Shown: piece by piece, positions 8,473-50,655 of the stretch | Layout: every line of letters begins with the position of its first letter | Numbering within the stretch: position 1 is the stretch's first letter | Source of the DNA: Reinekea forsetii | GTDB taxonomy: Bacteria > Pseudomonadota > Gammaproteobacteria > Pseudomonadales > Natronospirillaceae | NCBI RefSeq assembly: GCF_002795845.1 | Contig: NZ_CP011797.1 | Span: 2,952,001 to 3,016,000 of the forward strand | DNA: 64,000 nt | Direction: 5' to 3' | The notes under the pieces: model-generated | Database searches by the model: none | Seen by the model: only the letters and a program-made list of their open reading frames with translations | Told to the model about the DNA's origin: nothing | Translations under genes and position numbers: made by a program

Positions 8473-10059
8473 CTATCGGTGCCGATCCGGGGGAGTGGCG
8501 CTGTTCGCCATCACACCAAACAGCGACTTGCCCGCCCGCCCCAAACGCGACCATTGCTCGCTCAAGTTCACATTGCCACGACCTTCTTGGCGGCGGCGAT
8601 TGAGCTGCGTCTGCAGCCCTTGACTGTAATAGTGATCCAGCTGCTGGTGTACGGCAGGCAAATTAAAATGTTCCCGCTGGGCTGAGACCGACAAGGGCAA
8701 CAGATTAGCAAAGCCCAACAGCTCACGATTGTAAGCCAGCGCCTCATTGATGGTTTTCGCCTTGGCGCTATCGGGCTGGTTTAGATCATAGGGTGGCTGC
8801 CAGTGCTCGACCGGATTGAGCAGGTCGACCTGGTTCAATAGCGCCAGGATCGGCGGCCGTTTGCGTGAACGTTGTTTATCCGCTTGGTAATAGGCTGTCA
8901 GCGCACGTTGGAAATCCAGGTCGAGCTGACGCGAGGGCTGGCTGGCCTTGAGCACCCAGATAATCAGATCGCACTGTTGGATTTCTTGCACCAGTAACTC
9001 GGTGGTTTTCGCCTGGCCGTCCAGACCGGGCAAGTCGATCAGATGCAAGGCATCGTGACCCTCAATCCGACAACTGTAGACGCGCGCCGCTTGAGTGGTC
9101 GGTAACAAATCCACTTCGGCGGCCAGATCGAGGCTTAGCGCATTCACTAAGGACGACTTACCGGCACTGACCTGCCCCACTAGGCCGACCCGCAAGGGCT
9201 CCAATTCGAGCACGGGCCGCTGTTGGTCGACTAGGGCCGCCCGACTCTGACCCAGGTCGGCGTCGTCGACGGAAAAGCGACCGCTGTACAGATCGATACT
9301 CACCGAGACCACCTCTTGCATCAGCGCCCGCTTTAGGCGTACCTGGGATTCAGCGCCGATGCGCTTAATAAACTCATCGAACACCACCTTGCGCACCTCC
9401 GCGGCCACCGCGCTGACCGGATTAACCAATCGTAAGGCCCGATACAGATAGCTGGCGTAACGATAGACCTGACTGCCCTTGGCTAGGTTTTGCTTTTGCT
9501 CGAAGCCATATTTGAAGTGGCCGATGGTGAGTTTTTCGATCATCGGGACATTGTCTTTGAGCAAGATTCGATAACGCCGACTGATCTCTTCGATCAGTTT
9601 GAGCGACTCCGGCACAGTAAAGCTATAGGGCGCCTTGCCATAGTGCTGCGCCGTCTGCTGCATCAACACCAGGCCCTGTTCCACTAAACCGTCCCAGGCC
9701 AGCGGTTCCGTTAACTGGTTGCTGATACCTTGATTCAATTGGCGCCAAACTTCGTTATCGAACTCACTCCAATCGGCAGAGGCAATGACCAGGGCGGCGT
9801 CGGCTTCGAGGCTGAAGTCGGTCTTATGTTGCCGAGACCAAAACCAGAAAACACCATAGACCAACACCGTACAGCCGGTGATTAAGCCCAAGAACTCCAG
9901 GCTATAGCCCTGCTGGACCAGCGCGACGGTACCGAAACCGGCCAAAATCATAAAGGGAATTACCATCCCGATGGCCATAAAAGGCAAGATCCAGCGCGAG
10001 CCGCGACTGACTAGGTTGAATAGGCGTTTAAGGCTTGTTGGCGGGTTCGGACTTGGCAC
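8473..10059 (-). CDS. Membrane-anchored dynamin/Era-like GTPase
   Basis: I start this 528-residue protein at GTG 10059, where AGGAG sits 6 bases upstream; the longer frame to 10176 would overlap the upstream gene by 149 bases. Two hydrophobic segments lie near the N-terminus (about residues 20-65). The second half is a GTPase domain: P-loop GQVSAGKSSLVNAL, G3 DLPGLDG, and a G4-like NQVD. Similar membrane GTPases occur in the YeeP/YfjP and dynamin-like groups, but I cannot name a function. It overlaps the preceding GTPase gene by 32 bases, so the two are almost certainly translated from one mRNA and may act together at the inner membrane. Confidence 0.85.
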   Translation of the reverse strand: MPSPNPPTSLKRLFNLVSRGSRWILPFMAIGMVIPFMILAGFGTVALVQQGYSLEFLGLITGCTVLVYGVFWFWSRQHKTDFSLEADAALVIASADWSEFDNEVWRQLNQGISNQLTEPLAWDGLVEQGLVLMQQTAQHYGKAPYSFTVPESLKLIEEISRRYRILLKDNVPMIEKLTIGHFKYGFEQKQNLAKGSQVYRYASYLYRALRLVNPVSAVAAEVRKVVFDEFIKRIGAESQVRLKRALMQEVVSVSIDLYSGRFSVDDADLGQSRAALVDQQRPVLELEPLRVGLVGQVSAGKSSLVNALSLDLAAEVDLLPTTQAARVYSCRIEGHDALHLIDLPGLDGQAKTTELLVQEIQQCDLIIWVLKASQPSRQLDLDFQRALTAYYQADKQRSRKRPPILALLNQVDLLNPVEHWQPPYDLNQPDSAKAKTINEALAYNRELLGFANLLPLSVSAQREHFNLPAVHQQLDHYYSQGLQTQLNRRRQEGRGNVNLSEQWSRLGRAGKSLFGVMANSATPPDRHR

Positions 10060-35762: not shown

Positions 35763-36899
35763 TCAGGACTTCTTAAGCCCGAACGGCAACCATTCGCTGT
35801 TATTTTTAGCGGAGCGGAGACAGGTATCAATGAACTGCATTCCCTGAAGTCCCTCATCAATCCCGGGCAGCATCGCACCGTCGTTTTTGCCCTCGATCAG
35901 GTCAGCGGCTTCGGTGTAAATATTCGCAAAACATTCCAGATAACCTTCTGGGTGGCCAGGTGGAATGCGGGTCCACAACTGAGAACCATCACCAAATCCT
36001 GCTCCACCGCGCGTCAGGATGCGCTTGGCTTCACCGTGAACAGTCAGCGACATCACATTCGGGTTCTCCTGAGACCATTCCAGCCCGCCCTTTTCGCCAT
36101 AGACCCGTAGGCACATTCGGTTTTCATTTCCAATAGCAATTTGCGACGCCCAGAGCATAGCTTTAGCACCGCCTTGCATCCGCAACAATATATGTGCGTT
36201 GTCATCCACTTGACGGCCTGTGCCAAAGCTATGCAAGTCGGCGCTCAGGGCCTCAGTTTTTAGCCCCGTAACAAATCCCAACAGGTTGAAAGCGTGTGTT
36301 CCAATGTCTCCAATGGCACCGCCGCCGCCCGATTTGGCCGGGTCTGTGCGCCACGCTGCTTGTTTTTGCCCTTCGTTTTCAATGCTTTTTGCCAACCAAT
36401 CCTGGGCATATTCAATCTGGGCTACGCGGATCGCACCCAATTCACCATTGGCGATTATCCTTCGGGCGTGTCGGACCAACGGATAACCCGTGTAATTATG
36501 AGTTAGAACAAAATGTGCACTTGAAGATTTGATGGCCGCTGCAATCTCGTCTGCTTCTGCAAGGGTCGCGCAAAGTGGCTTATCACAGATCACGCTGATG
36601 CCAGCTCTTAGAAAAGCAATAACCGGGGCCGCGTGCATCTGGTTCGGGGTAACGATCGCAACGGCGTCGATGCCATCACTGCGATCCGCTTCGGTTTTCG
36701 CCATGACACGGAAATCCGAATAAGAACGGTCGGGTGCGATGCCCAGATCCGCGGCACTTTCTGCTGCTGTATCCGCGCTCGACGACAGGGCGCCCGCAAC
36801 CAATTCAAAACGGCCATCGATCCGGCTGGCGATACGATGCACGCCGCCAATGAACGCACCCCGGCCGCCACCGACCATGCCAAGTTTTAGTCGTTTCAT
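35763..36899 (-). CDS. Gfo/Idh/MocA family dehydrogenase (operon copy 1)
   Basis: The 378-residue enzyme has the NAD-binding GMVGGGRGAFIGGVHR at the N-terminus, the family motif CDKPLC with its lysine near residue 105, and the active-site segment GGGGAIGDIGTHAFNL with His near 205. Such enzymes oxidise or reduce sugars and inositols, often at C3. The ATG overlaps the stop of the upstream isomerase gene (ATGA). The stop codon falls exactly at the IS3 end, so the natural C-terminus could have been trimmed slightly. Confidence 0.92.
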   Translation of the reverse strand: MKRLKLGMVGGGRGAFIGGVHRIASRIDGRFELVAGALSSSADTAAESAADLGIAPDRSYSDFRVMAKTEADRSDGIDAVAIVTPNQMHAAPVIAFLRAGISVICDKPLCATLAEADEIAAAIKSSSAHFVLTHNYTGYPLVRHARRIIANGELGAIRVAQIEYAQDWLAKSIENEGQKQAAWRTDPAKSGGGGAIGDIGTHAFNLLGFVTGLKTEALSADLHSFGTGRQVDDNAHILLRMQGGAKAMLWASQIAIGNENRMCLRVYGEKGGLEWSQENPNVMSLTVHGEAKRILTRGGAGFGDGSQLWTRIPPGHPEGYLECFANIYTEAADLIEGKNDGAMLPGIDEGLQGMQFIDTCLRSAKNNSEWLPFGLKKS

Positions 36900-37951
36900 A
36901 AACCCAACATCTTCTTGATTGCACCTTCGTCGCGTGTCCCACCGGCAAAGTCATCAAAGGCTTTGTCGGTCATCTCGATCAGATGTTTCTCAATGAAAGG
37001 CGCGCCCTCTTTTGCACCTTGCGTAGGTGATTTCAGGCAACATTCCCACTCAAGGACGGCCCAACTGTCGTAACCGTACTGGGACAGCTTGGAAAAAATT
37101 GCGCCAAAATCGACCTGTCCGTCGCCAAGGCTTCGAAAACGTCCGGCTCGATCTACCCAAGGTTGATAGCCGGAATACACGCCCTGCCGGCCATCGGGGT
37201 TGAATTCAGCGTCTTTGACATGAAAAGCGCTGATCCGATCGTGATAAAGGTCGATAAAGGCAAGGTAGTCCAATTTTTGCAGCAAGAAATGACTGGGGTC
37301 ATAGTTGATTCGCGCAGCCTCATGCTGACCACAAGCATCAAGAAACATTTCCCATGTTGCACCGTCAAAGACATCCTCTCCGGGGTGAAGTTCAAAAGCG
37401 ATGTTTTGGCCGTGGTTCGCATAATGGTCGAGGATAGGCTGCCATCGGCGGCCAAGCTCTGCAAATGTTTCCTCGATGAGGCCTTCGGGGCGCTGGGGCC
37501 AAGGGTAAAGAAACGGAAAGGCTAAGCTGCCGGTAAAGCTGACTGTATTAGTTAGCCCTAAGCGCTCACTTGCTACTGCAGCCTTCATCAGTTGGTCGAC
37601 GGCCCAAGCCTGCCGTTTCTTTGGATTGCCGCGACAATCCGCGGGCGCAAAGGCATCAAATGCAAGATCGTAGGCCGGATTCACAGCAACCAGTTGGCCC
37701 TGAAGATGCGTGCTTAACTCGGTGATTTGTACGCCTGAATCCGCGCAGGTGCCTTGCACCTCGTCGCAATAGGCGGCACTTTCTGCTGCCAGATCAAGAT
37801 CGAAAAACCGCTTGTCGGAGGTTGGTATTTGAACGCCTTTGTATCCAAGTCCCGACGCCCAAGAGGTGATTTCCGCAAGCGAATTGAACGGCGCGGCATC
37901 GCCAGAGAATTGAGCCAGAAACAAGGCTGGACCTTTAATTTTAGCTGCCAT
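36896..37951 (-). CDS. Sugar phosphate isomerase/epimerase-type TIM barrel (copy 1)
   Basis: I start at ATG 37951, which overlaps the stop of the ABM gene. The 351-residue protein matches the xylose isomerase-like/AP endonuclease 2 TIM-barrel family: VQIPTSDKRFFDLDL early, TELSTHLQGQLVA, then metal-ligand segments IAFELHPGEDVFDG, INYDPSHFLLQ, FHVKDAEFNP and VLEWECC at the barrel ends. Such proteins isomerise, epimerise or eliminate keto-sugars. It lies just before a Gfo/Idh dehydrogenase, a combination typical of pathways with 3-keto-sugar intermediates. Confidence 0.9.
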   Translation of the reverse strand: MAAKIKGPALFLAQFSGDAAPFNSLAEITSWASGLGYKGVQIPTSDKRFFDLDLAAESAAYCDEVQGTCADSGVQITELSTHLQGQLVAVNPAYDLAFDAFAPADCRGNPKKRQAWAVDQLMKAAVASERLGLTNTVSFTGSLAFPFLYPWPQRPEGLIEETFAELGRRWQPILDHYANHGQNIAFELHPGEDVFDGATWEMFLDACGQHEAARINYDPSHFLLQKLDYLAFIDLYHDRISAFHVKDAEFNPDGRQGVYSGYQPWVDRAGRFRSLGDGQVDFGAIFSKLSQYGYDSWAVLEWECCLKSPTQGAKEGAPFIEKHLIEMTDKAFDDFAGGTRDEGAIKKMLGL

Positions 37952-38253
37952 CACATGATCTCGCTGTGCATTTTTAGATACCGAATATTCACTGGGCTGG
38001 CCAAAAGCCGGTCCACTTGCGAAAACAATGCCGTAAGATGGGGCATATCCATATGAGCATCGAGATCCTGTTGGCTGCGCCAATTTTCATAGAAGACAAA
38101 AACACACGGATCGGTTGCATCGACATGGAAGTCATAATTGATACAGCCAGTTTCTTGGCGCGTCGGGCCCACTTGTGCGGACAGAAGTTTTTGCAGCTCT
38201 ACTCGAGTTTCAGGTTTTGCGGTAACTGTGCCTATGATTGTCACATGGTTCAT
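37951..38253 (-). CDS. Small ABM-fold (YgiN-like) protein
   Basis: The 100-residue protein has the antibiotic-biosynthesis-monooxygenase ferredoxin-like fold: MNHVTIIGTVTAKPETRVEL, then GPTRQETGCINYDFHVD, FVFYENWRSQQDLDAHM and HLTALF. Members include quinol monooxygenase YgiN and several dimeric sugar-pathway accessory proteins. Its position inside the sugar operon, overlapping the isomerase gene, suggests a catabolic or isomerising role rather than antibiotic synthesis. Confidence 0.85.
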   Translation of the reverse strand: MNHVTIIGTVTAKPETRVELQKLLSAQVGPTRQETGCINYDFHVDATDPCVFVFYENWRSQQDLDAHMDMPHLTALFSQVDRLLASPVNIRYLKMHSEIM

Positions 38254-38256
38254 TGC

Positions 38257-39225
38257 TCACGCCCTTTTTTGGCTAAGTGCGACCGCAAGGATAATGATTC
38301 CTCCTCGCGCGATCAGTTGTTGACTGAATTCCAGCCCCATCAAGATTAACCCGTTGTTGATCAGACCAATCATCATTGCGCCAACGAGGGTGCCAATTAC
38401 CGTGCCCTTACCGCCGAATAGAGACGTACCACCCAGCACTGCTGCGGCGATGACGGAAAGCTCATCGCCTTCGCCTAGCTGGAAACGGCCCGATTGCAGG
38501 CGACCCGCATAAAACATCCCCGCCAAAGCTGCAGCAGTAGATGAGATGACCAAAACCCGAAACTTGATCTTGGCGGTGTTGATGCCGGAATAGCTAGCGG
38601 CTTGCTCGCCACCACCCGTGGCCAGCACCCGGCGACCAAAACCAGTTCGGCGTAAAACGACGTGACCGACTGCACCGAGAATTAGAATCCAAAACAGCAA
38701 CACCGGAATAGGCCCGATGGAGCCACCGCCGAACCACCAGATATAGCCCTGCGACAAGATCGGAACAGCGGCTGTGCCTGACACCCACATGGCAAGCCCC
38801 TTGGCTATACCCATCATTGCAAGCGTCGTTAAGAACGAGGGTATGCCAATTTTCGTGGTCAACCAGCCGTTAAAGACTCCAACGGCAATACCTGTTGCAA
38901 GACCTGCAATAATCCCCGCAAATGGCCCAGCGAAGGAAACCGCCAATGCAACGGTCACACTGGCAAGGCCAGCGACAGCACCGACAGAGAGGTCAATTTC
39001 ACCCGCTGACAATACGAATGTCATTGCGATCGCCATCACGGCGATCATCGCCGTCTGTCGGACAATGTTGAGCAGATTATTGGGGTTCAGAAACCCTCTA
39101 TCATTCAGAGTCAGAGCGAATATTAGAAAAATCGCAATAAAGCCAATATATATAATATTTTGGCGCCAATCCCTCAGAAACGCGTGAAGCACACCAGGGA
39201 GTTGATTTGTGTCAGTATTGGGCAT
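38257..39225 (-). CDS. Ribose-type (CUT2) ABC permease
   Basis: I start at ATG 39225, with AAGGA 5 bases before it; the longer frame runs into the ATPase gene. The 322-residue inner-membrane protein matches RbsC/XylH: NPNNLLNIVRQTAMIAVMAI, then SAGEIDLSVGAVAGLASVTV and VAVLGGTSLFGGKGTVIGTL (here as AAAVLGGTSLFGGKGTVIGT). Around ten hydrophobic segments are present. It overlaps the ATPase gene by 14 bases and is the single permease of the importer, probably acting as a dimer. Confidence 0.95.
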   Translation of the reverse strand: MPNTDTNQLPGVLHAFLRDWRQNIIYIGFIAIFLIFALTLNDRGFLNPNNLLNIVRQTAMIAVMAIAMTFVLSAGEIDLSVGAVAGLASVTVALAVSFAGPFAGIIAGLATGIAVGVFNGWLTTKIGIPSFLTTLAMMGIAKGLAMWVSGTAAVPILSQGYIWWFGGGSIGPIPVLLFWILILGAVGHVVLRRTGFGRRVLATGGGEQAASYSGINTAKIKFRVLVISSTAAALAGMFYAGRLQSGRFQLGEGDELSVIAAAVLGGTSLFGGKGTVIGTLVGAMMIGLINNGLILMGLEFSQQLIARGGIIILAVALSQKRA

Positions 39226-40801
39226 GGGAATCCTTTTGCCCTGCAGCGAGGGCTTCTTGAATAGAGATTTGTAGCCGCTGTTCGGCGGCCTGTAGGCGGT
39301 GTGCAATGTCGGTATTTTCCTCAGCTGGGTCGTCCAACGCGGCGCGCGGGAAGTCGGCATAGGTCCGTCCGTCCGCCATGACAACAATGCGGTCGCAGGC
39401 AGTCAGAAGTTCCGACAACTCGGAGGAAATCATCAGAATGGCTTTGCCACTCGCAGCCAGATCCCGCACCAGTTTGATGATTTCGGATTTCGAACCAATG
39501 TCGATTCCAGCTGTTGGTTCGTCAAGCACCAGTACGTCCGGGTCAACCGCCAACCATTTGCCGATGACCACCTTTTGCTGGTTGCCACCTGAAAGCGTAC
39601 TAACAGCATGATCACGGCTTGCTGTTTTAATAGAAAGTCGCTCGATTTGGGCATCTGTAACTGCGCGTGCTTTGGCGGCGTTGACGAAGCCGGCACTTGT
39701 AAGGTTGTCCAGCCCAGCAAGTATTACATTGTCGGTTACGGAATGGGATGCGATGATGCCCTGCGTCGCCCGGGCTTCAGGTACAAGGACCACTCCCGCC
39801 GCGATGGCGTCACCGGGTCGGCGGAAGTTAACAGCACGGTCGTTGACGAGAATTTCGCCAGAAGCCACTGGGTCAATCCCAGCGATGAGTTTTGCGAGCG
39901 ACGTACGGCCCGACCCAAGTAAGCCGGCCAACCCGACGACCTCGCCTTTGTGGATCGAAAGCGAGATATTATTCGGTTTGTTGCGCCCCGACACGTCTCG
40001 CAACTCCAGCCCGATATCGCCGCGGATAGCTTCACTTCGCACCACATCAGCAAGGCCGAGGGACCGCTTGCCAACGATATGTTCGATCATCGTATCTATG
40101 GGCAGATCGCCGATATCTGCTGTGATAACATGTTTACCATCGCGTAGTATCGTAGCTCGATCAGCAATGCGGGCGATTTCGTCCATACGGTGGCTTACGT
40201 ATATTATCGCGACGCCCTGCTTCTTTAGTTTGCGCAAAAAAGTAAACAGCCGATCAACATCAGAAACCGCCAGGGCAGTGGATGGTTCATCAAGTACGAG
40301 AATGCGGGCGTTTTGAGAAATAGCCTTGACAATTTCCGTCAGTTGTTTTTGCCCCGCACCAAGATCACCAACGATGGCACTCGGATCGACATCCACTTCA
40401 AGCATTGCAAAGAGTTTGGCGGCATCGCGCTCCGCCTCACTATCGTCAATTAACCCACCCGACTTCGCTTCACGTGTCAAATAAACGTTTTGAGCAACGG
40501 TCAGCGTCGGGATCAGACTCATTTCTTGATAATTCATCGCGATACCGGCGGCACGTGACGCCTCGGGTGAGTGAGTTGTTAGCGGTACGCCCGCCACTTC
40601 GATGTAACCCGCGGACGGCGCATGCACGCCGTTGAGCACCTTCAAGATCGTTGACTTTCCGGCGCCGTTGCCGCCCAAAAGCGCATGAATTTCGCCGGCC
40701 AATACTTCAAAGCCGACGTTATCCAAGGCTTGGACGCCGCCAAATTTTTTGGAAATACCCTTCATACGGACCGCGACAGTTGACACTATATGTTTTCCCA
40801 T
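39212..40801 (-). CDS. Ribose-type ABC importer ATPase with two nucleotide domains
   Basis: The 529-residue protein has two ABC domains, as in RbsA/XylG. The first has Walker A GGNGAGKSTILK, a signature-like DLGAGQKQLTEIVKA and Walker B ILVLDEPSTAL. The second has a modified Walker A region GLLGSGRTSLAK, signature LSGGNQQKVVIGKWL and Walker B VLVLDEPTAGID. The altered second P-loop is normal for this family. The ATG overlaps the upstream Gfo/Idh stop by 16 bases; a GTG 5 codons in is an alternative start. Confidence 0.95.
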   Translation of the reverse strand: MGKHIVSTVAVRMKGISKKFGGVQALDNVGFEVLAGEIHALLGGNGAGKSTILKVLNGVHAPSAGYIEVAGVPLTTHSPEASRAAGIAMNYQEMSLIPTLTVAQNVYLTREAKSGGLIDDSEAERDAAKLFAMLEVDVDPSAIVGDLGAGQKQLTEIVKAISQNARILVLDEPSTALAVSDVDRLFTFLRKLKKQGVAIIYVSHRMDEIARIADRATILRDGKHVITADIGDLPIDTMIEHIVGKRSLGLADVVRSEAIRGDIGLELRDVSGRNKPNNISLSIHKGEVVGLAGLLGSGRTSLAKLIAGIDPVASGEILVNDRAVNFRRPGDAIAAGVVLVPEARATQGIIASHSVTDNVILAGLDNLTSAGFVNAAKARAVTDAQIERLSIKTASRDHAVSTLSGGNQQKVVIGKWLAVDPDVLVLDEPTAGIDIGSKSEIIKLVRDLAASGKAILMISSELSELLTACDRIVVMADGRTYADFPRAALDDPAEENTDIAHRLQAAEQRLQISIQEALAAGQKDSHAQY

Positions 40802-41949
40802 AAGCCAGTCTTACCTGAACGGATCAAGGCCTCAGCCACTTGTTCGGTTAACAGCGCTTCTTCAAAGTTTGGTGATGGCTGAGTGCCATCCATGATAGCT
40901 TTGCAGAAATCATAACATTCGATGATCTTGGTCTCACTGTAACCTATTCCCAGCGCAGGGATTGGCCAAAGGCCTTCACCATACGGGTGGGCAGGTCCGG
41001 TATAGATAGTACGGAAGCCGCGCGCATCACCCGGATCATCTGCGAACATGACCTGTAATTCATCTCGTCGCTCGTAGTTAAACAAAATCGAGCCTTTCGT
41101 ACCATGAATTTCCAGCGTGATGAAGTTGTTGCGACCCCACGCATTGCGACTGGCCTCTATACTACCAACAGCGCCTGATTTGAAGCGCACCATCGATATG
41201 ACTTCATCATCGACATCCACTTCGGCTCGCTCAGCATCTGAAGATTTTTCGGATGCACCGAGTTTGTCGACACCGCCTTGCTGTATGGGACGGGTTTTGA
41301 TGTAGGTCGAAGTGATCGCTTGCACGTTGTCGATGGGACCAACAAGATGGTGAGCCAAGTCAATAACATGGGTGCCGATATCTCCGATAGCGCCAGACCC
41401 TGCGATTTTTTTCTGAAAACGCCAGGATAGTGGACCATCGGGATCTGCGGACCAATCTTGCAGATAGGTGCCGCGGAAGTTGATGACATCGCCGATTCTG
41501 CCTTCATCAATGAATTTCTTGGCAAGAGCAACGGCGGGTGTGCGGCGATAGTTGAAGGCGACCATTGTAGTGCCATTTGAGGCCCGCGCGGCTTCCGCCA
41601 TTGCAATAGATTCCTCAAGCGTACTGGCAAGCGGCTTTTCGCAAATTACGTGTTTGCCTGCTTTTAACGCTTCGATCGCGATTTCAGCGTGGGCGTCGTT
41701 CGGGGTGCAGATGTCGACGATGTCGATGTCTGAACGGTTGACGATCGCCTTCCAGTCAGTTGAGGCTTCGTCGAATCCGAACCGATCGCGCGCCTCTTGA
41801 GCCGCCAGGTCTGTTAGATCAACCACTACTTTGCGGTGAGGGATTGCGGGGGCTGGCCAAAAAAACATCGGCATAGCTGCATAGGCCATGGCGTGAGCCT
41901 TACCCATAAAACCACCACCAATTAGTGCTACGTTCAGTGTCTTAGTCAT
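40786..41949 (-). CDS. Gfo/Idh/MocA family dehydrogenase (operon copy 2)
   Basis: The 387-residue enzyme has the Rossmann start NVALIGGGFMGKAHAMAYAA, the motif CEKPLA near residue 100 and the active-site segment GSGAIGDIGTHVIDLAHHLV. It differs clearly from the other Gfo/Idh protein of the operon, so they probably act at different steps or on different substrates. LDH-like or inositol-dehydrogenase-like activity is likely. It follows the binding-protein gene and precedes the ATPase gene, overlapping it. Confidence 0.93.
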   Translation of the reverse strand: MTKTLNVALIGGGFMGKAHAMAYAAMPMFFWPAPAIPHRKVVVDLTDLAAQEARDRFGFDEASTDWKAIVNRSDIDIVDICTPNDAHAEIAIEALKAGKHVICEKPLASTLEESIAMAEAARASNGTTMVAFNYRRTPAVALAKKFIDEGRIGDVINFRGTYLQDWSADPDGPLSWRFQKKIAGSGAIGDIGTHVIDLAHHLVGPIDNVQAITSTYIKTRPIQQGGVDKLGASEKSSDAERAEVDVDDEVISMVRFKSGAVGSIEASRNAWGRNNFITLEIHGTKGSILFNYERRDELQVMFADDPGDARGFRTIYTGPAHPYGEGLWPIPALGIGYSETKIIECYDFCKAIMDGTQPSPNFEEALLTEQVAEALIRSGKTGLWENI

Positions 41950-41980
41950 CGGAATGCTCCGTCAATAAAAAGTTTAAGAT

Positions 41981-42011
41981 GGCCCTATGGCGGGAGAGCT
42001 ACCGTAGGGCC
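41981..42011 (-). promoter_or_regulatory. Intercistronic hairpin downstream of the binding-protein gene
   Basis: GGCCCTATGG (41981-41990) pairs with CCGTAGGGCC (42002-42011), allowing one wobble or mismatch. It has no T run on the minus strand. A similar hairpin follows the binding-protein gene of the other ABC operon. Confidence 0.65.
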
Positions 42012-42024
42012 GGTTCCTAGTCAG

Positions 42025-43152
42025 TTAGTCCATACTGTCTAGGATATTTTGCGTTGGCGCGGCGCGGTAAACTGTCTCCCAAGCCTCAAGCAAATTGTCT
42101 TTATTGACCGGAAGTGCCGGAAGCGCGACAAACGCAGGAGCTTCTTTGCCCAACAGGCCGTATCCAGCAAGCATCGCTTCAGCTATACCTTGGTCAAAGG
42201 GACGTTGTGCACCCAGACCCTTAATGAAGCCGCCCTGCGCCATGTTGATCGCAACGTTTTCACCAAGGTCAATGGTGGTGATAACCAGATCGTCACGACC
42301 AGCAACACGCGCCGCCGAGATAACGCCTTCAGCCGGAACATCCCACACTGCCCAAATACCGTCGAGGTCATAATGCGAAATCAGCATAGCAGAGGCCGCT
42401 TTTTCGCCGTCGCCAGAGAAATCCGGTCCGCCGATACCTTGCTCTGCTACAATCTCAATGTTCGGGTAGTCCTCAGTGATTGTGGTTTTGAAAGCGTCAT
42501 AGCGTTGACGTGTGACAAAGAAATCGGCGGCATGGAAAACCAGGCCAATCTGACCTCCATCTTCACCCAACGCTGCTGCCATTAAGTGAGCTGCAGCTAC
42601 ACCGTTGCCATAGTTGTCAGCTGAAACCACAGAAACGTAATCCACACCAGCTGTCATGCCCGGAGGAGTGTTCTCCATAAATACGATCTTCACACCAGCC
42701 GCCGCAGCCGCCATATAGGCAGCAGCTGTTGCCGATGGGTCTGTTGGGACAGAAACGATGATGTCGGGCTTCCGGGCCATTATTGTTTCAATATCTGCGA
42801 CCTGCTTTTCCGGTTTAAAACCGGCGTCAGTAACAGCGATCACTTCGATTCCCAATTCACCGAACTGGAACTTGAGGCCTTCGATTTGTGCACGTGACCA
42901 GTCATTGCCGGCATAGTGCATCACGATGGCTGCTGTCGCGTTCATCGCCTTGATCTGATCGATTTCTGCAGCGCTCAGCTTCAAGTCGGTTGCAGGGCTC
43001 GGTTCTTCTCCGCTTGGGCCTTTGGACAGGACTGTTTCCTGCAGTGCGGCCAAAGCAGCGGATGGATCTGCTACAGCTGGTGCAGCGGATAGAGTCAGCG
43101 CCAGTGCGGCGGCGGCGGCGGCGGAACCCAAAATATTTCTACGTGCAATCAT
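42025..43152 (-). CDS. Periplasmic sugar-binding protein (RbsB-like), Tat-like signal
   Basis: The 375-residue protein begins MIARRNILGSAAAAAALALT with a twin-arginine, a long hydrophobic stretch and an APAVA cleavage region, so it may be exported by Tat. The rest matches periplasmic-binding family 4: ATAAIVMHYAGNDWSRAQIE, then ETIMARKPDIIVSVPTDPSA, GVDYVSVVSADNYGNG and ITTIDLGENVAINMAQGG. It delivers a sugar to the CUT2 importer. It is clearly paralogous to the leaderless protein at 46510-47520, which shares YVSxVSADN, VWD, ITTxDLG, GQRPF/AQRPF and the C-terminal VALPxL. Confidence 0.95.
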   Translation of the reverse strand: MIARRNILGSAAAAAALALTLSAAPAVADPSAALAALQETVLSKGPSGEEPSPATDLKLSAAEIDQIKAMNATAAIVMHYAGNDWSRAQIEGLKFQFGELGIEVIAVTDAGFKPEKQVADIETIMARKPDIIVSVPTDPSATAAAYMAAAAAGVKIVFMENTPPGMTAGVDYVSVVSADNYGNGVAAAHLMAAALGEDGGQIGLVFHAADFFVTRQRYDAFKTTITEDYPNIEIVAEQGIGGPDFSGDGEKAASAMLISHYDLDGIWAVWDVPAEGVISAARVAGRDDLVITTIDLGENVAINMAQGGFIKGLGAQRPFDQGIAEAMLAGYGLLGKEAPAFVALPALPVNKDNLLEAWETVYRAAPTQNILDSMD

Positions 43153-43201
43153 AATACTTCCTCTCAGCAGGTTGGGGCGAACCCCGGTTGGTTTTGGTCA
43201 G

Positions 43202-44014
43202 TTAGACTCGGTTTAAATAGTCAATACTGGCACGTGCGCCAGCAGCGGGGTCGTCCCAAGAATCTAGTTCAGTGCACACCCAGCCTGCGAAATTCGTTTC
43301 GCGCAAAGCGGCAATGATCCCGTCCATCGGCACATCACCGCGATCAAGCGGTGTGAATGCAAAGGGCTCTTTTTGAAACCCCTTGAGGTGTACATAGGAA
43401 ATACGGTCAGCATGTTCCCGGATCATCTGCGCCGGATCACCACCAGCCGCAGCAAGATGTGCTGTGTCAGGGCAAAAATCAATTGACGTCAGACCGAAGA
43501 TGCGACGCACCTCTTCGGGGCCCTCGACAATCGTAGACAGATGCGGGTGGTAATGAGCGGTAAGATTGCGATCCTCAGCCAATGACTTTACTCGATCAAG
43601 AGCTGCGCCCAATTTGTCATAGTCAGTATCGCGAACACCATCAAAACGCTTAGCGCCTCCACCGACCACCAAATGCGGGGCATCTAGTTCTGCAGCGCGA
43701 TCAGCGGCGCGTGTAATGCGTGCTAATTCCTCCGGCAAGATGTCATCAAAAATAAAGTTAGCACCGGAATACGCTGCAACCAATGCCAGACCGTTATTCT
43801 TGAGCATGGTGCGAAAATCGGTGACACCGTAATCCAGCAGATTGCCGTCAAACAATTCAACACCAGTATATCCAGCGGCTGCGATTTCTGCGCAGGCCCG
43901 GTCCATATCTCCAAATGTACGATAACTGAGTTGCGTGATTGAGGTCACGCCCTCTGCATTCCCGCCAAGATTACCCCAGCAATTAGCTTGATACGCCAGC
44001 TTCCAGTCACTCAT
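43202..44014 (-). CDS. Sugar phosphate isomerase/epimerase-type TIM barrel (copy 2)
   Basis: The 270-residue protein is a second xylose-isomerase-like TIM barrel of IolE/hydroxypyruvate isomerase size. Segments that carry metal ligands are visible: GYTGVELFDGNLLDYG, LTAHYHPHLSTIVEG, IDFCPDTAHLAAAGGD, ISYVHLKGFQKEP and VCTELDSWDDP. It is the first gene of the operon. Together with the other isomerase and the two dehydrogenases it suggests an oxidation-isomerisation pathway for an inositol-like or 3-keto sugar. Confidence 0.92.
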   Translation of the reverse strand: MSDWKLAYQANCWGNLGGNAEGVTSITQLSYRTFGDMDRACAEIAAAGYTGVELFDGNLLDYGVTDFRTMLKNNGLALVAAYSGANFIFDDILPEELARITRAADRAAELDAPHLVVGGGAKRFDGVRDTDYDKLGAALDRVKSLAEDRNLTAHYHPHLSTIVEGPEEVRRIFGLTSIDFCPDTAHLAAAGGDPAQMIREHADRISYVHLKGFQKEPFAFTPLDRGDVPMDGIIAALRETNFAGWVCTELDSWDDPAAGARASIDYLNRV

Positions 44015-44261
44015 GTCGCACTACTCCATCGGTTGATAAAACCACCTTAAGCCGCATTTAGGCTGTAGTCAATATTTTTTATGCACAAGATTGCATTCTT
44101 TTGCTTTTTTAAGACATTAGTACAAGAACATTTTTTCCTCTGGATACACAAGCTTTAAAAAATCATCGATAGTCCAAAAACGAAGCATAAAACCCTGCAT
44201 TCAACCCATATATCCGAACATTTTGCTATCAGATGGCTTTTTAGCACCCTTTTTCTAACTA

Positions 44262-44818
44262 TTAGGCGCAACTATGATGTGAAGCTTTACAGGGTTTCTT
44301 AATGCTCGCCCCTCGCCTAAGATTATAAGCCAAACACATCACACCGAATCGAATACGATTACGAGCCAGCCCCAAGTAGCGGGCTTGGCCCATGCCATAA
44401 TATGTAACTTCAGAAGCCCAAACACTCGCTCGACTGTGCAAGGTGTGCCTGAGGTCGGCCGGCATAAAAGCTGAGTAAGCCTCAGGACCTATCGTCGTTG
44501 GTCCCGAGCGGGTCTGGTTGACATGGCCCACGGCCACTGGCCAGTCGGCCGGTGCCAGAAAATAAGATCCGTGAGCAGCAGACGCGGGTGATCTTAGCGG
44601 TGGGTAATGAGCCTCAACATGCCAGTTTACCGCCCGTACGAAGCGGCATAACTATCGGTTCCTAAGGAGCTACCTTTTAATCGTGGATGACTCAGGCTGC
44701 AGCAGCTCGGCAGAAATGGCGCTTTAAACATAAACAAAGGTGGCCACGCTGCATTACGACGACGTTTGGCATGGATGTCACACAGTAGGTGTTCTATAAC
44801 TTGCCAATCGATCATCTC
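44262..44818 (-). pseudogene. IS5-family transposase remnant
   Basis: The N-terminal piece (from 44818) reads IDWQVIEHLLCDIHAKRRRN and AAWPPLFMFKA, the usual opening of IS5-type transposases. The C-terminal piece (ending near 44262) reads VWASEVTYYGMGQARYLGLA and RNRIRFGVMCLAYNLRRG, their usual ending. About 170 middle residues, with most of the DDE centre, are missing. It separates the sugar operon from its divergent regulator genes. Confidence 0.75.
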
Positions 44819-45149
44819 ATTTACATCATCCGATTTAGTCAGTGCTTCACGCCCAGACGTCAGGCTATTAGCTACACTCAGCTTAACTGCTTAAGGTTTT
44901 TCCATGCTATAACGTGTTCCTAGAGCGTTATTTTTGCAGGCTATTTTTACTCCAAACCGGTGATCCTTTGTACCAAAAAGACTTTAAATTGGTGTATTAT
45001 TAATTATTGACGATATCGCAATGTGTCTTTGTATCTCTATATCTTTATATCTTTGTGCAAAGGTCTCTTTTCATACAAAAGAACGAACTTGTCCTGCAAA
45101 TATGAGCAGAATATTGTTGTGATTATTCACCAGGGAGATACCCATTTTC
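44819..45149 (+). other. AT-rich regulatory gap before the ROK gene
   Basis: No gene is visible here. A near-palindrome CTTTGTGCAAAG lies at 45051-45062, among several CTTTGTAT/ATCTTT motifs, and is a possible operator for the ROK protein. A related region with GCACAAGATTGCAT lies in front of the operon near 44084. Confidence 0.4.
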
Positions 45150-46499
45150 GTGCACAAAGACAAATCAGCATCGAATAACCAAAGAGGAAAAGGACGGCCG
45201 CGCAACAGCGAAGTGGCTACAGCAAGCCTGGTTGCCGTGCTAAATCATGTGCGTTTGGGCCAAACTACGACCCGTCAGGATTTAGAACGCGTCAGCGAAT
45301 ATGGGCGCGCTATTATCGCCGACAGGCTTGCGATCCTTACAGAACTTGGTTTGGTTAATGAAAGTGAAACAGGCGTGGCCACAGGCGGTCGGGCGCCGCG
45401 CCGCGTCCAATTCACCAAGGATCGTGCGCGACTTGTTGTTGTCACACTCGACCAATCCGCCATCGGCGTCGGCCTTGCCGACCTCAGCGGTAAGCTATTG
45501 ACGGAACATCACGAAGCAGCCAATATCACAGATCAGACCAAGACTGTGGCCCGTATCTACGCCTTGATTAATTGGCTAATGACGCGGCAGGCCGAAACTC
45601 CGGATTTGTGGGGGATTTCCATTTCCGTGCCCGGCCCAGTTCTCACCGACCCCAACGCCGCGTTTTTGCTCGAAACCCCCAACTTTCTTCCTAGTTGGGA
45701 TAAGAGCGGTCTTGTCGAAGCACTGATGCAGCGATTTGATGCCCCTGTCTGGATGAATTCTAACGTTGATGCTATGACGATGGGGGAATTACATGGCGGC
45801 ACTGGGATAGACCAACAAACCATGCTGTTTATCAAAGTCGGACAGCGAATTGGCGCCGGTCTGGTCAGTAATGGCCAACCCTACCGCGGGGCCGTTCGTG
45901 CCACTGGTCTGATTGGACAATTACCAGTGACATCTGGCGACACCACTGGAACACTCGATGCCATGGCTGGGGCGAACATGATCAAAGCGCGGGGTACCGA
46001 GGCCGCACAATCGGGGGAAAGCGCTTATCTGGCCGACTTACTTGTGCGTGGAACCGACATTACGGCGATTGAGGTTTGTCAGGCGGCACAGATGGGCGAC
46101 GCCGTGAGCACAGAAATCATCGTGCAAAGCGGTCGAATCATTGGCGGTGTCGTAGCAACCCTTGCCAATATGCTGAACCCACAACTTATTGTCATCGCCG
46201 GGTCGATTGCACAGACGAATGACATCTTGCTCGCAAGCGTACGTGAAACTGTTTATGGTGCATCGCATCCGCTTGTCACACGAGATCTACGCATCCTGCG
46301 ATCGCAAATGGGCAATTCCGCTGCCCTTTTGGGTGCGGCCGGCATCGCTGTTTCGGCGCTATTTGATCCGACGTTCTTGAAAGGCTGGATATTGTTGGGA
46401 TCTCCAACCCGGCATCCAGACTTTTTACATGGTTTGGAAACTTTAGGCTCTATTACGCAGCAAGCCAACGACGGGGCCCAAGCCCCACCGGGCCGTTGA
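45150..46499 (+). CDS. ROK-family transcriptional regulator lacking zinc ligands
   Basis: The 449-residue protein uses a GTG start with AGGGAGA about 12 bases upstream. A winged-helix domain (RQDLERVSEYGRAIIADRLA, then ILTELGLVNESETG) precedes a ROK domain: ISISVPGPVLTD, NSNVDAMTMGELHGG, VGQRIGAGLVSNGQPYRGAV. The usual histidine and CxCGxxGC zinc site is absent; GLIGQLPVTSGDT stands in its place. Such ROK proteins (NagC/XylR-like) normally bind a sugar or sugar phosphate. The loss suggests it does not bind ligand in the standard way. It is divergent from the sugar operon and 11 bases before a soluble binding-protein gene. Confidence 0.92.
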   Translation: MHKDKSASNNQRGKGRPRNSEVATASLVAVLNHVRLGQTTTRQDLERVSEYGRAIIADRLAILTELGLVNESETGVATGGRAPRRVQFTKDRARLVVVTLDQSAIGVGLADLSGKLLTEHHEAANITDQTKTVARIYALINWLMTRQAETPDLWGISISVPGPVLTDPNAAFLLETPNFLPSWDKSGLVEALMQRFDAPVWMNSNVDAMTMGELHGGTGIDQQTMLFIKVGQRIGAGLVSNGQPYRGAVRATGLIGQLPVTSGDTTGTLDAMAGANMIKARGTEAAQSGESAYLADLLVRGTDITAIEVCQAAQMGDAVSTEIIVQSGRIIGGVVATLANMLNPQLIVIAGSIAQTNDILLASVRETVYGASHPLVTRDLRILRSQMGNSAALLGAAGIAVSALFDPTFLKGWILLGSPTRHPDFLHGLETLGSITQQANDGAQAPPGR

Positions 46500-46509
46500 G
46501 GAGATTGGT

Positions 46510-47520
46510 ATGAAAATAGTTGGACTTGGACCACACGGTGAAAGTGCTTCTCCGCCAGAGCGGGTTACCCTTTTACCACAGGACATAACTGCGGCATGTG
46601 CAAAAAAGTTACGCGTCGCCATTGTCATGCACACCTTAGAAAGCAACTGGGCCAGGCTTCTAGTGCAAGGGGTGATTGGGACATTGGGTGAATGCGGTGC
46701 GATCGTCATTGACGTTGTGGATTGCAACTTTTCTTCCGCAACGCAAATCGATGCCTTGGACCGTTTGCGTAAGGAATCGCCTGACGCTATTATTTCCCTT
46801 CCTGTCAACAATACGACCGTCACAGAGGCCCATCTTGCGATCTCAGAAGCGGGTATAAAACTCGTTTTGATTGACAATGTCCCCACTGGAATGCTTCCAG
46901 GCAAAGACTATGTCTCGCTTGTTTCAGCTGACAACTTTGGCTTGGGCAGAATTGCAGCCGAACTTCTGTCTGACCACTTACCGCAGGGCGCTGCTGCCGG
47001 GGTGCTCGCCTATGATGCAGATTTCTTTGCCACAAATGAACGTGAAATCGCTTTTAGTCGTTGGATGGAGGTCAACCGCCCTGACGTCGCGGTGAAAACA
47101 GCGAGATTTTCAACCATTGGTGACGCCGGACATGAAGCTGCCCAACTCATAAATGACCACTCGGAAATTGCAGGACTGTTCGTCGTCTGGGATAGTCCCT
47201 GCATTGACGTCGTCAGGGCAGTTTCAAAACGAAACCCGATTCCGCCCATTACAACGGTGGATCTTGGGCACGAGGTGGCAGAAAGCCTTGCAAAAGGGGG
47301 GCCTGTGATTGGGGTGGCAGGCCAGCGTCCCTTTCAGCAAGGTGAAGCCGTCGCCCGCACTACAATCACGACGTTGCTTGATCGCAATTGCCCAGATTGG
47401 GTTGCCCTGCCTGGCTTAATCGTCTCTCGATCAAATGTCATTGAAAGTTATCAGACCATCTGGCGCAAGCCTATGTCTCGCGAAATTTTGATCGAGCTCA
47501 ACCTTTTAAAATCAAAATGA
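46510..47520 (+). CDS. Leaderless cytoplasmic paralogue of the operon's sugar-binding protein
   Basis: The 336-residue protein has the periplasmic-binding fold but no signal peptide and no helix-turn-helix, so it should stay in the cytoplasm. It aligns with the secreted binding protein of the same island over most of its length: KDYVSLVSADNFGLGR, ITTVDLGHEVAESLAKGG, GQRPFQQGEAVA and PDWVALPGLIV all have counterparts there. Ligand-contact regions are the best conserved. It follows the ROK gene after 10 bases. The simplest idea is that it binds the same sugar inside the cell and reports it to the ROK repressor. Confidence 0.88.
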   Translation: MKIVGLGPHGESASPPERVTLLPQDITAACAKKLRVAIVMHTLESNWARLLVQGVIGTLGECGAIVIDVVDCNFSSATQIDALDRLRKESPDAIISLPVNNTTVTEAHLAISEAGIKLVLIDNVPTGMLPGKDYVSLVSADNFGLGRIAAELLSDHLPQGAAAGVLAYDADFFATNEREIAFSRWMEVNRPDVAVKTARFSTIGDAGHEAAQLINDHSEIAGLFVVWDSPCIDVVRAVSKRNPIPPITTVDLGHEVAESLAKGGPVIGVAGQRPFQQGEAVARTTITTLLDRNCPDWVALPGLIVSRSNVIESYQTIWRKPMSREILIELNLLKSK

Positions 47521-48910: not shown

Positions 48911-49855
48911 TTATTTAACTGTTTTTCGAAGTAAAACTAAGTTATCCAATACCAGATTAGACGACCAAATAAATTCAGCATCAGCTCTTTTTGCGTCAAA
49001 TACATCGAGAAAATTCATGTATGATTTTTTGTTTTTAACCCCAACGGTGTCATTAGTGAAGGTCTCAGCTGCAGGCCATGCACTGTCATCAAAATTCGGC
49101 TTCATCCAGTCTTCCGCGACTGTCCAATGAGCCGCTGAGGTTTTTTTAGCATCAGTTACTTTCTGCTTATCACAAGCTGAACTATCGCGCAACGAGCTAC
49201 TTACTACCAAACAACGTCTATTGACGATGGGGGAGGTATAAAAAGTTTGAGCCTTCCAAGTATCATCTGTTATAGCTACAGTCTGGCCTTTTGCATCTTG
49301 AAAATGGGCCACTAAACCACCATCGCCAGCATGAAATTTAGTACCACGATTGCTCTCCATTCCTAAACCAAGCGTCTCTTCCCAGTCCACCATTTTTATA
49401 GCGATAGTTAACGGACGATCCGCTTTAAAACGTACAATAGTAGAATTAAATGGCGTAAAAACAACGGGGTCAACAGCAACTAGTATTCCGTTTACGTATA
49501 GCTCAAAGTAGTTATCGGGGAATAAATATACCGTAAACTCCTCTTCACCTCCCGCATCCATAACTGTCACATCGTTTAAGTTTAAGTCAGCGAGTGATTT
49601 CAATACCTTACCACCACATTCGTTAAACAGGTCTCCTGCTTTAGGAGCCATTTCATAGTTATTCTGTGCTGGTACAACCCACATTCTTCCATCTTCCGAT
49701 GTGATTTCACCAACAGCACTAGGGCGAGATTTTCCACCACAATTAATCAAACCAGCATGCGTTTGAGTTGCAGGGCCCATAGTAAAAGTTGGCTGTTCTG
49801 CCACAACCGACGCTGCTAAAAATATCGAAGCAAAAATTAGTGGAAATTTGTTCAT
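48911..49855 (-). CDS. Secreted protein of unknown function
   Basis: I start at ATG 49855, where AAGGAAC precedes it and a good Sec signal follows (MNKFPLIFASIFLAASVVA, cleavage near VVA-EQP). The in-frame upstream extension of 117 codons looks non-coding. The mature protein is about 295 residues, beta-rich, with cysteines that could pair (CGGK twice, RRCL, SACD). FELYVNGILVAVDPVVFTPF and TIAIKMVDWEETLGLGM resemble carbohydrate-binding or galactose-binding-like domains, but the match is too weak to name. No neighbour explains it. Confidence 0.75.
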   Translation of the reverse strand: MNKFPLIFASIFLAASVVAEQPTFTMGPATQTHAGLINCGGKSRPSAVGEITSEDGRMWVVPAQNNYEMAPKAGDLFNECGGKVLKSLADLNLNDVTVMDAGGEEEFTVYLFPDNYFELYVNGILVAVDPVVFTPFNSTIVRFKADRPLTIAIKMVDWEETLGLGMESNRGTKFHAGDGGLVAHFQDAKGQTVAITDDTWKAQTFYTSPIVNRRCLVVSSSLRDSSACDKQKVTDAKKTSAAHWTVAEDWMKPNFDDSAWPAAETFTNDTVGVKNKKSYMNFLDVFDAKRADAEFIWSSNLVLDNLVLLRKTVK

Positions 49856-50655
49856 AGTTGTTCCTTTACTGAATACTAAAAATATTACTTTTAGGTTGGA
49901 GTAGGCCAATTTTACGCTTATAAATAAACACCATTGGTTGCTCTGTAACTGATCAGACGTCAATACCAATTGGAAGCTAGTTAATTTCCGCATCAGTTGA
50001 GGTGAATACGAAGAGCTGACTGGGGTATCAGTTATACCACTTTCGGGTACCGCGAGTATATCAACACGTTTTTGAGCTTTGGTTTTAACTTCTATACTTT
50101 TAGATGGCGGCCTGGCTAGCTGATCAAAGGCGCGCTTGTCGCTAGCGATTGGGCCACCGCACACCCATAGTTGGGTGAGCTGGATTCCTCGATACGTAAA
50201 AGACACTGCCAGCTAAATGAGGAATTATTAAAGCTGGCAGATTCATTCCTTGCTTAATATATCGACACAAAAGCAGTTCAACAATGGTATTCGAACGCTT
50301 CCAAAAAATGAGATAATTCCCGTATTTGGCTATAGAGTATTTTCGTATACATCCATCGCTATCGCACACAGCAACGGCATGGCAGCTCACACAACGCCAC
50401 ACCCAGGGGCCCAGGCAGTCAGAGCTTGGAATGATCAGGAATTGTTGATGTTGGTGGAGTTATCGAGGAACCTGTTTGGTACTGAGCGGTTGTCGTTCCA
50501 AATGCTAACCGAAGATGATCGCGAGCCACTATAAAACCCTTTGTCCAAGCTTGATGGCTGATGGTGACTAATCCAGTGCAAGCGCAACGTAGGCCGTCCG
50601 GCTAAAAAGCACTGGATTGTAAGATGGGTTTTTAAGGCGGTTTTATCGCAGGCAC
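49856..50655 (+). other. Intergenic region without convincing gene
   Basis: Several short frames on both strands have no ribosome site or recognisable family. The end holds the tRNA-Leu terminator. Confidence 0.5.

Follow-up and report, generated by a model that had tools for sequence, protein, structure and literature searches.

Two adjacent genes of Reinekea forsetii probably encode a split transcription regulator, in which a ligand-blind ROK protein and a cytoplasmic binding-protein sensor jointly serve a levoglucosan operon. The genes lie in the window analyzed here, a 64,000-nucleotide stretch of contig NZ_CP011797.1, and what suggests a sugar-sensing switch is their juxtaposition: a ROK protein devoid of its sugar pocket sits next to a sugar-catching protein devoid of a signal peptide. 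As proposed, the two would form the two halves of a single cytoplasmic regulator of levoglucosan uptake and oxidation. The ROK protein would be the DNA-binding half, seated on a palindrome (recognizable in relatives) between its own gene and the divergent operon, which it would most likely repress; the known ROK site would no longer let it read the sugar. Sensing would fall to the leaderless binding protein. Levoglucosan, imported unphosphorylated by the ABC transporter, would close this protein in the cytoplasm, and either its closed or its open state would alter the grip of the ROK protein on DNA. A first-pass annotation of the sequence had already put forward a regulator split in this way. 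Its anatomy, the loss of ROK residues, the largely kept sensor pocket, the co-occurrence and the co-divergence of the two genes, and a conserved palindrome in relatives all speak for it, while the control step itself, along with the cytoplasmic location, the ligand, the ROK–sensor contact and the sign of control, is what we infer from them. The features concerned are as follows.

45150..46499, plus strand: ROK-family regulator gene, 449 aa, GTG start, PF00480
46510..47520, plus strand: leaderless RbsB-type (Peripla_BP_4) binding protein, the proposed sensor, 336 aa, ATG start, beginning MKIVGLGPHGES, PF13407
44015..45149, no strand: divergent promoter region, 1,135 bp, with a degraded insertion
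43202..44014, minus strand: xylose-isomerase-like TIM-barrel protein, first gene of the operon, PF01261
42025..43152, minus strand: secreted RbsB-type binding protein with a signal-type N-terminus, paralogue of the leaderless one
40786..41949, minus strand: levoglucosan dehydrogenase (Gfo/Idh/MocA), NF052479, 696.7 bits (cut-off 650)
39212..40801, minus strand: ABC ATPase, operon gene
38257..39387, minus strand: sugar ABC transporter permease, listed from the start of the longest ORF, which overlaps the ATPase gene
37951..38253, minus strand: ABM-domain protein, present in the operons of many relatives
36896..38083, minus strand: second xylose-isomerase-like TIM-barrel protein, with the start taken from the longest ORF
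35763..36899, minus strand: second Gfo/Idh/MocA oxidoreductase of the operon

The divergent operon thus runs from 44014 down to 35763. Because the longest ORF of the second TIM-barrel gene overlaps the ABM gene, its true start probably lies later. The dehydrogenase scores above the curated cut-off, which identifies a levoglucosan (lgd) locus and makes levoglucosan, a sugar from burnt plant matter, the most likely substrate. On the far side of the pair, positions 48914–50206 hold an ORF of 431 codons that matches no Pfam family at 0.001, located in the lowest-GC 2-kb stretch of the window (GC 0.43).

Both regulator frames fall exactly where the first-pass annotation had drawn them, 10 bp apart. 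The upstream protein is a bona fide ROK protein: PF00480, the domain family that it has in common with NagC and Mlc, covers residues 105–400 (E = 7e-33; 114.8 bits against a cut-off of 22.9). It is the only Pfam match, and no helix-turn-helix Pfam family was detected on the protein at E 0.01. Scores on the NagC model (148 bits; cut-off 650) and the Mlc model (118 bits; cut-off 530) are both far under threshold. Mlc-type chains nevertheless rank among its best solved-structure matches, with the alignment in the N-terminal region starting at about residue 36; the structure model of the protein itself is poor (pLDDT 41.7).

The zinc motif GHx9-11CxCGx2G(C/H)xE has been called characteristic of all ROK members (PMC2742894). 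As the first-pass annotation had read, the window protein has no CxCGxxGC, and Q257 replaces the zinc histidine of Mlc. The loss is real, but it carries less weight than had been claimed. The motif is found in only 33 of 74 regulator-size control ROKs from 12 genomes and is missing in the other 41, so that its absence by itself is unremarkable and the motif does not decide ROK membership in practice; moreover, six of the 41 family ROKs, all with a leaderless partner, retain it. Zinc loss was consequently dropped as the main line of evidence. Among the remaining 35 family members, including the window protein, the loop carries a deletion, and five of them keep the histidine alone.

What is unusual about the family ROKs is the loss of the sugar residues N, D, and E. 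Comparison with glucokinase named five such residues in the GNE kinase domain, N516, D517, E566, H569, and E588 (PMC2742894), and these were placed, by way of an Mlc alignment, on an alignment of 41 family and 69 control ROKs. Conserved sugar residues in the ROK domain, the finding that the first-pass annotation held would speak against it, did not turn up for the first three: none of the 41 family members keeps N, D, or E566, whereas every one of the 69 controls keeps at least one of the three. Individually, the controls carry N in 59, D in 54, E566 in 43 (D in 11), H in 35, and E588 in 43. At the same five positions the window protein reads S204, N205, L254, Q257, and D270. Since the family ROKs are one lineage, this loss represents few events rather than 41; the 41 loci of the pair include near-copies and reduce to 19 members at 70% non-redundancy. 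The controls came from 124 matches in the 12 genomes, among which 92 regions were chosen; family loci and mostly kinase-size frames were excluded, together with a few longer frames. Seven regions (L128, L176, L181, L185, L197, L201, and L204) contained no ROK ORF. Among the remaining 85, the 74 of at least 370 aa entered the zinc count and the 69 of 370–500 aa the sugar-residue counts. Three ROKs, those of L141, L143, and L158, keep N, D, and E, have no zinc motif, and are followed by a secreted binding protein of the same wider family as the sensor. These loci were considered as further pairs and rejected on account of the signal-type N-termini of the downstream proteins; they are possible ordinary cousins for comparison.

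The two remaining sugar positions were not lost to the same degree. His persists in 11 of the 41 family members, and the last position is E in 22, D in 18, and Q in one. With six proteins holding both zinc motif and His, and 40 holding an acidic last residue, another ligand in the ROK cleft is possible. One might therefore picture a two-input switch, in which the ROK protein senses its ligand via a remodeled site and the leaderless protein modulates it or senses a second ligand, the latter in keeping with the one sensor pocket residue that is unlike that of the secreted protein. Such an arrangement seems unlikely when three of five sugar residues are gone from all 41 proteins and the zinc motif, with a deletion in its loop, from 35.

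The second component of the proposed split regulator is a binding protein both by domain (PF13407, E = 3e-26) and by its type I fold. PF13407 is the sole Pfam family on it at E 0.01; hence no DNA-binding domain was found, in line with the first-pass annotation, and the fusion of helix-turn-helix and binding-protein fold that defines the LacI family is not present. Nor does it carry the signal peptide of RbsB-type binding proteins. A missed signal peptide, another finding that the first-pass annotation had named as refuting it, can be dismissed: the 21 open codons preceding its ATG contain neither a start codon (ATG, GTG, TTG, or CTG) nor a run of hydrophobic residues. The hydrophobic peak of the first 30 residues, taken as a 10-residue mean on the Kyte–Doolittle scale, does not exceed 1.47 in any of 40 distinct leaderless proteins; for 50 secreted homologues the corresponding values over the first 60 residues range from 1.16 to 3.13, and only two fall below 1.89. 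From its sequence, then, the leaderless protein appears to be located in the cytoplasm.

Its kinship with the secreted protein of the operon is evident. The two are identical at 118 of 338 aligned positions (35%; pair E = 6e-60), the match of leaderless to secreted protein begins just past the signal region of the latter (‘GPHGE..SP’ versus ‘GPSGE..SP’), and the five blocks that had been reported as shared (YVSxVSADN, VWD, ITTxDLG, QRPF, and VALPxL) indeed occur in both. The best of five AlphaFold models of the leaderless protein adopts the type I binding-protein fold (pLDDT 83.7; the others 57–75), and its best solved matches are ribose-binding proteins, such as RbsB 7e7m (Foldseek E = 1.2e-18). 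Ten positions, S45, W47, A48, D122, N123, R178, F200, W227, D251, and Q272, are presumably the equivalents of the ligand contacts of ribose-binding protein. Of these ten, six hold the same residue at ≥90% in both the 41 leaderless and 14 secreted proteins, compared to a background of 54 of 329 columns (P = 0.002); between the two window proteins, seven of the ten are identical, as against 115 of 329 overall (P = 0.024). Alignment and model together describe a binding protein with a largely kept pocket. The first pocket position is N in the secreted proteins and S or G in the leaderless ones, and because of this change the ligand of the leaderless protein may differ, 3-keto-levoglucosan being one example.

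The leaderless protein had also been described as a copy of the sugar-binding protein of the same locus, and here the annotation needs correcting, in that the copy is not a recent one. A tree groups the 20 nearest secreted relatives in a single clade (98/100) that includes none of the 41 leaderless proteins (40 distinct ones plus that of L045), which marks the leaderless form as old. A recent duplication of the adjacent secreted gene was rejected on this tree, the root of which is uncertain owing to long branches. The leaderless label requires two changes on the tree, with a single origin in 20% of bootstrap trees; judging by these sequences, the leaderless form may have arisen once.

If the two proteins are halves of one regulator, their genes should keep company, and a lack of co-occurrence had been named as evidence against the pairing. 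Altogether 41 loci with both genes were collected. Profile searches with 12 sensors gave matches in 3 of 385 class, 17 of 397 order, and 10 of 394 family genomes, and every match above 430 bits has a ROK gene directly upstream. Two of the 17 order genomes matched through secreted proteins only; L055, L072, and L073 (335–343 bits) were set aside as secreted, having adjoining permease genes, no ROK gene, and signal-type N-termini. The reverse search of the order with 22 ROKs recovered 16 loci, spread over 15 of the 397 genomes and all scoring at least 604 bits; the next score was 324 bits. The 16 loci are the same ones that the sensor query finds. In 295 family genomes, all eight ROK matches fall among the 10 sensor genomes, and in the remaining two (G1217 and G1249), which may lie outside the 295, a ROK gene lies upstream as well. 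Thresholds were set by the authors (sensor search, E 1e-60 for the class and 1e-95 for order and family; ROK search, 1e-70). Given the agreement of forward and reverse searches, neither partner was found alone in the order and family samples, among the best four to five candidates scored per genome.

On plasmids, tblastn yielded 58 records, the top 13 of which (45–58% identity) appear to be of the leaderless type. Ten of these were inspected, and nine have a full ROK gene upstream. The one exception to the pairing that came up is L045 (Ochrobactrum plasmid, 8658–10032), where the sensor is intact, a Gfo/Idh/MocA gene adjoins, and only a C-terminal piece of the ROK protein is left. Two lower matches that were inspected, L043 and L044, are secreted proteins without a ROK gene. 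An apparent ROK–sensor fusion in L068 (a 929-aa open frame) was discarded, since the ROK gene uses a different frame and stops 53 bp short of the sensor match. Two loci of the pair, L215 and L216, belong to a single genome, each with its own operon.

The surroundings are similarly constant. Of 20 larger stretches, 19 have a divergent TIM-barrel gene as the closest recognized gene on the far side of ROK; in L210 it lies 2.6 kb from the ROK gene, and in L218 it follows the sensor gene on the same strand. A secreted homologue is present in 19 of these stretches. Sixteen contain a levoglucosan-dehydrogenase-like gene, and of the four that do not, two end early. No levoglucosan-dehydrogenase-like match was obtained for L039, L209, or L210 in the stretch searched, which for L039 excludes a cut Gfo/Idh/MocA gene at the edge. 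The operon of L039 (same record as L229, 8430–19453) has a GMC oxidoreductase gene and a gluconate-2-dehydrogenase-subunit-3-type gene beside the ROK–sensor pair, a variant that perhaps serves another 3-keto sugar pathway. The levoglucosan degraders listed in PMC10066097 include Shinella sumterensis MEC087, and another strain of this species carries the ROK–sensor locus on a plasmid (L041).

Beyond keeping company, the two proteins diverge together. In 29 loci, the pairwise distances of the sensor track those of the ROK protein with r = 0.93, and the partial correlation is still 0.83 once the contributions of the secreted protein, TIM barrel, ATPase, and permease are taken out (permutation p = 0.001). 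This is the strongest co-diverging pair among the six proteins tested, followed by TIM barrel and ATPase at 0.49; between ROK and the secreted protein the partial correlation is 0.02. Leaving out five basal loci gives 0.89 for ROK and sensor and 0.58 for the next pair, and with 16 non-redundant loci the values are 0.76 and 0.44. The sensor diverges at the rate of the ROK protein and in step with it, not with the transporter or the TIM-barrel protein. Transfer of both genes as one cassette could contribute to the co-divergence; indeed, co-divergence and co-occurrence would also arise if the genes merely traveled together as a cassette.

These results bear on whether the leaderless protein is a regulator at all. 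Its mostly kept sugar pocket, and a compartment presumably shared with the dehydrogenase (going by the family name of that enzyme), would also suit a protein that buffers levoglucosan, passes it on to the dehydrogenase, or acts on the transporter from the cytoplasmic side to slow it, and that is merely co-transcribed with the ROK gene. This is improbable: the sensor gene follows the ROK gene and, in 19 of the 20 larger stretches, runs against the direction of the enzyme genes; it diverges in step with ROK, and it is retained in the three loci where the search gave no levoglucosan-dehydrogenase-like match.

A regulator also needs an operator, and the divergent promoter of most relatives holds a candidate. 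An inverted repeat, ACTTTTGC-N9-GCAAAAGT, was first noticed in 12 of the 13 relatives whose divergent promoters were inspected. When the sequence 5′ of the ROK gene was scanned in 39 loci including the window (L053 and L065 were excluded for too little upstream sequence), 24 had the palindrome with two mismatches or fewer among its 16 positions, and allowing a third mismatch raised the number to 29; in 27 of the 29, not one of 100 dinucleotide-shuffled sequences matched as well. Outside the discovery set, 24 loci, close kin included, gave 11 with at most two and 16 with at most three mismatches. At this limit of three, the palindrome is missing from the window and from nine other loci, five of which have less than 125 bp of upstream sequence. 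We infer that the ROK protein is the binder of the palindrome.

In the window itself the palindrome is not recognizable, the best sites having five (ROK side) and four (TIM side) mismatches of 16, on a par with shuffles. The promoter region measures 1,135 bp, compared to 183–356 bp in the 13 relatives (to the start of the ROK match), and it owes this length to a degraded insert at 44190–44900, about 190 bp of which recur at five other places of the host genome with 88–89% identity. In R. forsetii the switch may thus be rewired or broken. The locus 35763–47520 looks horizontally acquired: in the R. forsetii genome outside the window and in 95 relatives the leaderless protein has no close homologue (best 26% identity), and the nearest relatives found are five contigs with alphaproteobacterial names, which encode a leaderless protein 71–88% identical, a ROK protein directly upstream, and the same operon. 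At its extreme, this would make the R. forsetii pair a decaying alphaproteobacterial import, severed from its operator by the insertion and stripped of its switch function there. The missing kin, the stretched promoter with its degraded repeat, and the unrecognizable palindrome would all fit; we nonetheless hold such decay to be quite improbable, for both ORFs are intact and remain 85% (ROK) and 88% (sensor) identical to those of L032, the nearest relative found, and many genomes maintain the family.

The split regulator favored here resembles, and departs from, several known systems. The activity of E. coli Mlc is abolished by another protein, the IIB domain of the glucose permease. A ROK protein ruled by a protein partner is likewise proposed here, but the partner of Mlc is a membrane PTS permease, whereas the candidate partner in R. 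forsetii is a soluble leaderless protein encoded directly downstream; the N, D, and E sugar residues that are gone from the window family also set it apart from NagC and Mlc. In LacI, a sugar-binding-protein fold serves as the cytoplasmic sensor in one chain with the DNA-binding domain. The same use of this fold is envisaged here, only in two chains and with the ROK protein as the candidate DNA-binding half. The levoglucosan cluster of Bacillus smithii has a LacI-family regulator (PMC7676230). In CuaD–CuaS–CuaR and XylFII–LytS, a dedicated second binding protein does the sensing for the regulator of a transport operon, but it is extracellular and works via a membrane histidine kinase (PMC10384115). 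Here, instead, the sensor has no signal peptide and would act directly on the DNA-binding protein; no sensor kinase gene lies beside the pair in the window, where the sensor gene is flanked by the ROK gene and a histidine-phosphatase-type gene, or in L037, L038, L040, and L042. The neighbors of levoglucosan dehydrogenase (lgdA) genes are known to include ROK, LytTR, PucR, and LacI regulators (PMC10066097). In three passages of that paper, substrate-binding proteins figure only as ABC transporter parts, and its main text gave no match for ‘signal peptide’ or ‘regulator’ (PMC10066097). No description of a ROK protein paired with a leaderless binding protein was found in the titles and abstract openings of open-licence papers.

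On balance, we lean slightly toward regarding the pair as an undescribed class of regulator: an obligate two-chain, one-compartment switch, akin to a LacI in two pieces with an unrelated DNA-binding half, that would have been carried as a cassette, together with levoglucosan-type operons, among alphaproteobacteria and into at least one distant host. Such a reading predicts a ligand, a partner, and an operator, and a possible use would be as an inducible levoglucosan sensor. It also carries a warning, namely that genes annotated as ‘substrate-binding protein’ and adjoining ROK genes may be regulators. If it is true, an extracellular binding protein has been moved into the cytoplasm as a detachable sensor and has taken over sensing from a regulator whose own pocket was lost afterwards. 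Stages of this hand-over may survive within the family, given that the zinc motif persists in some relatives.
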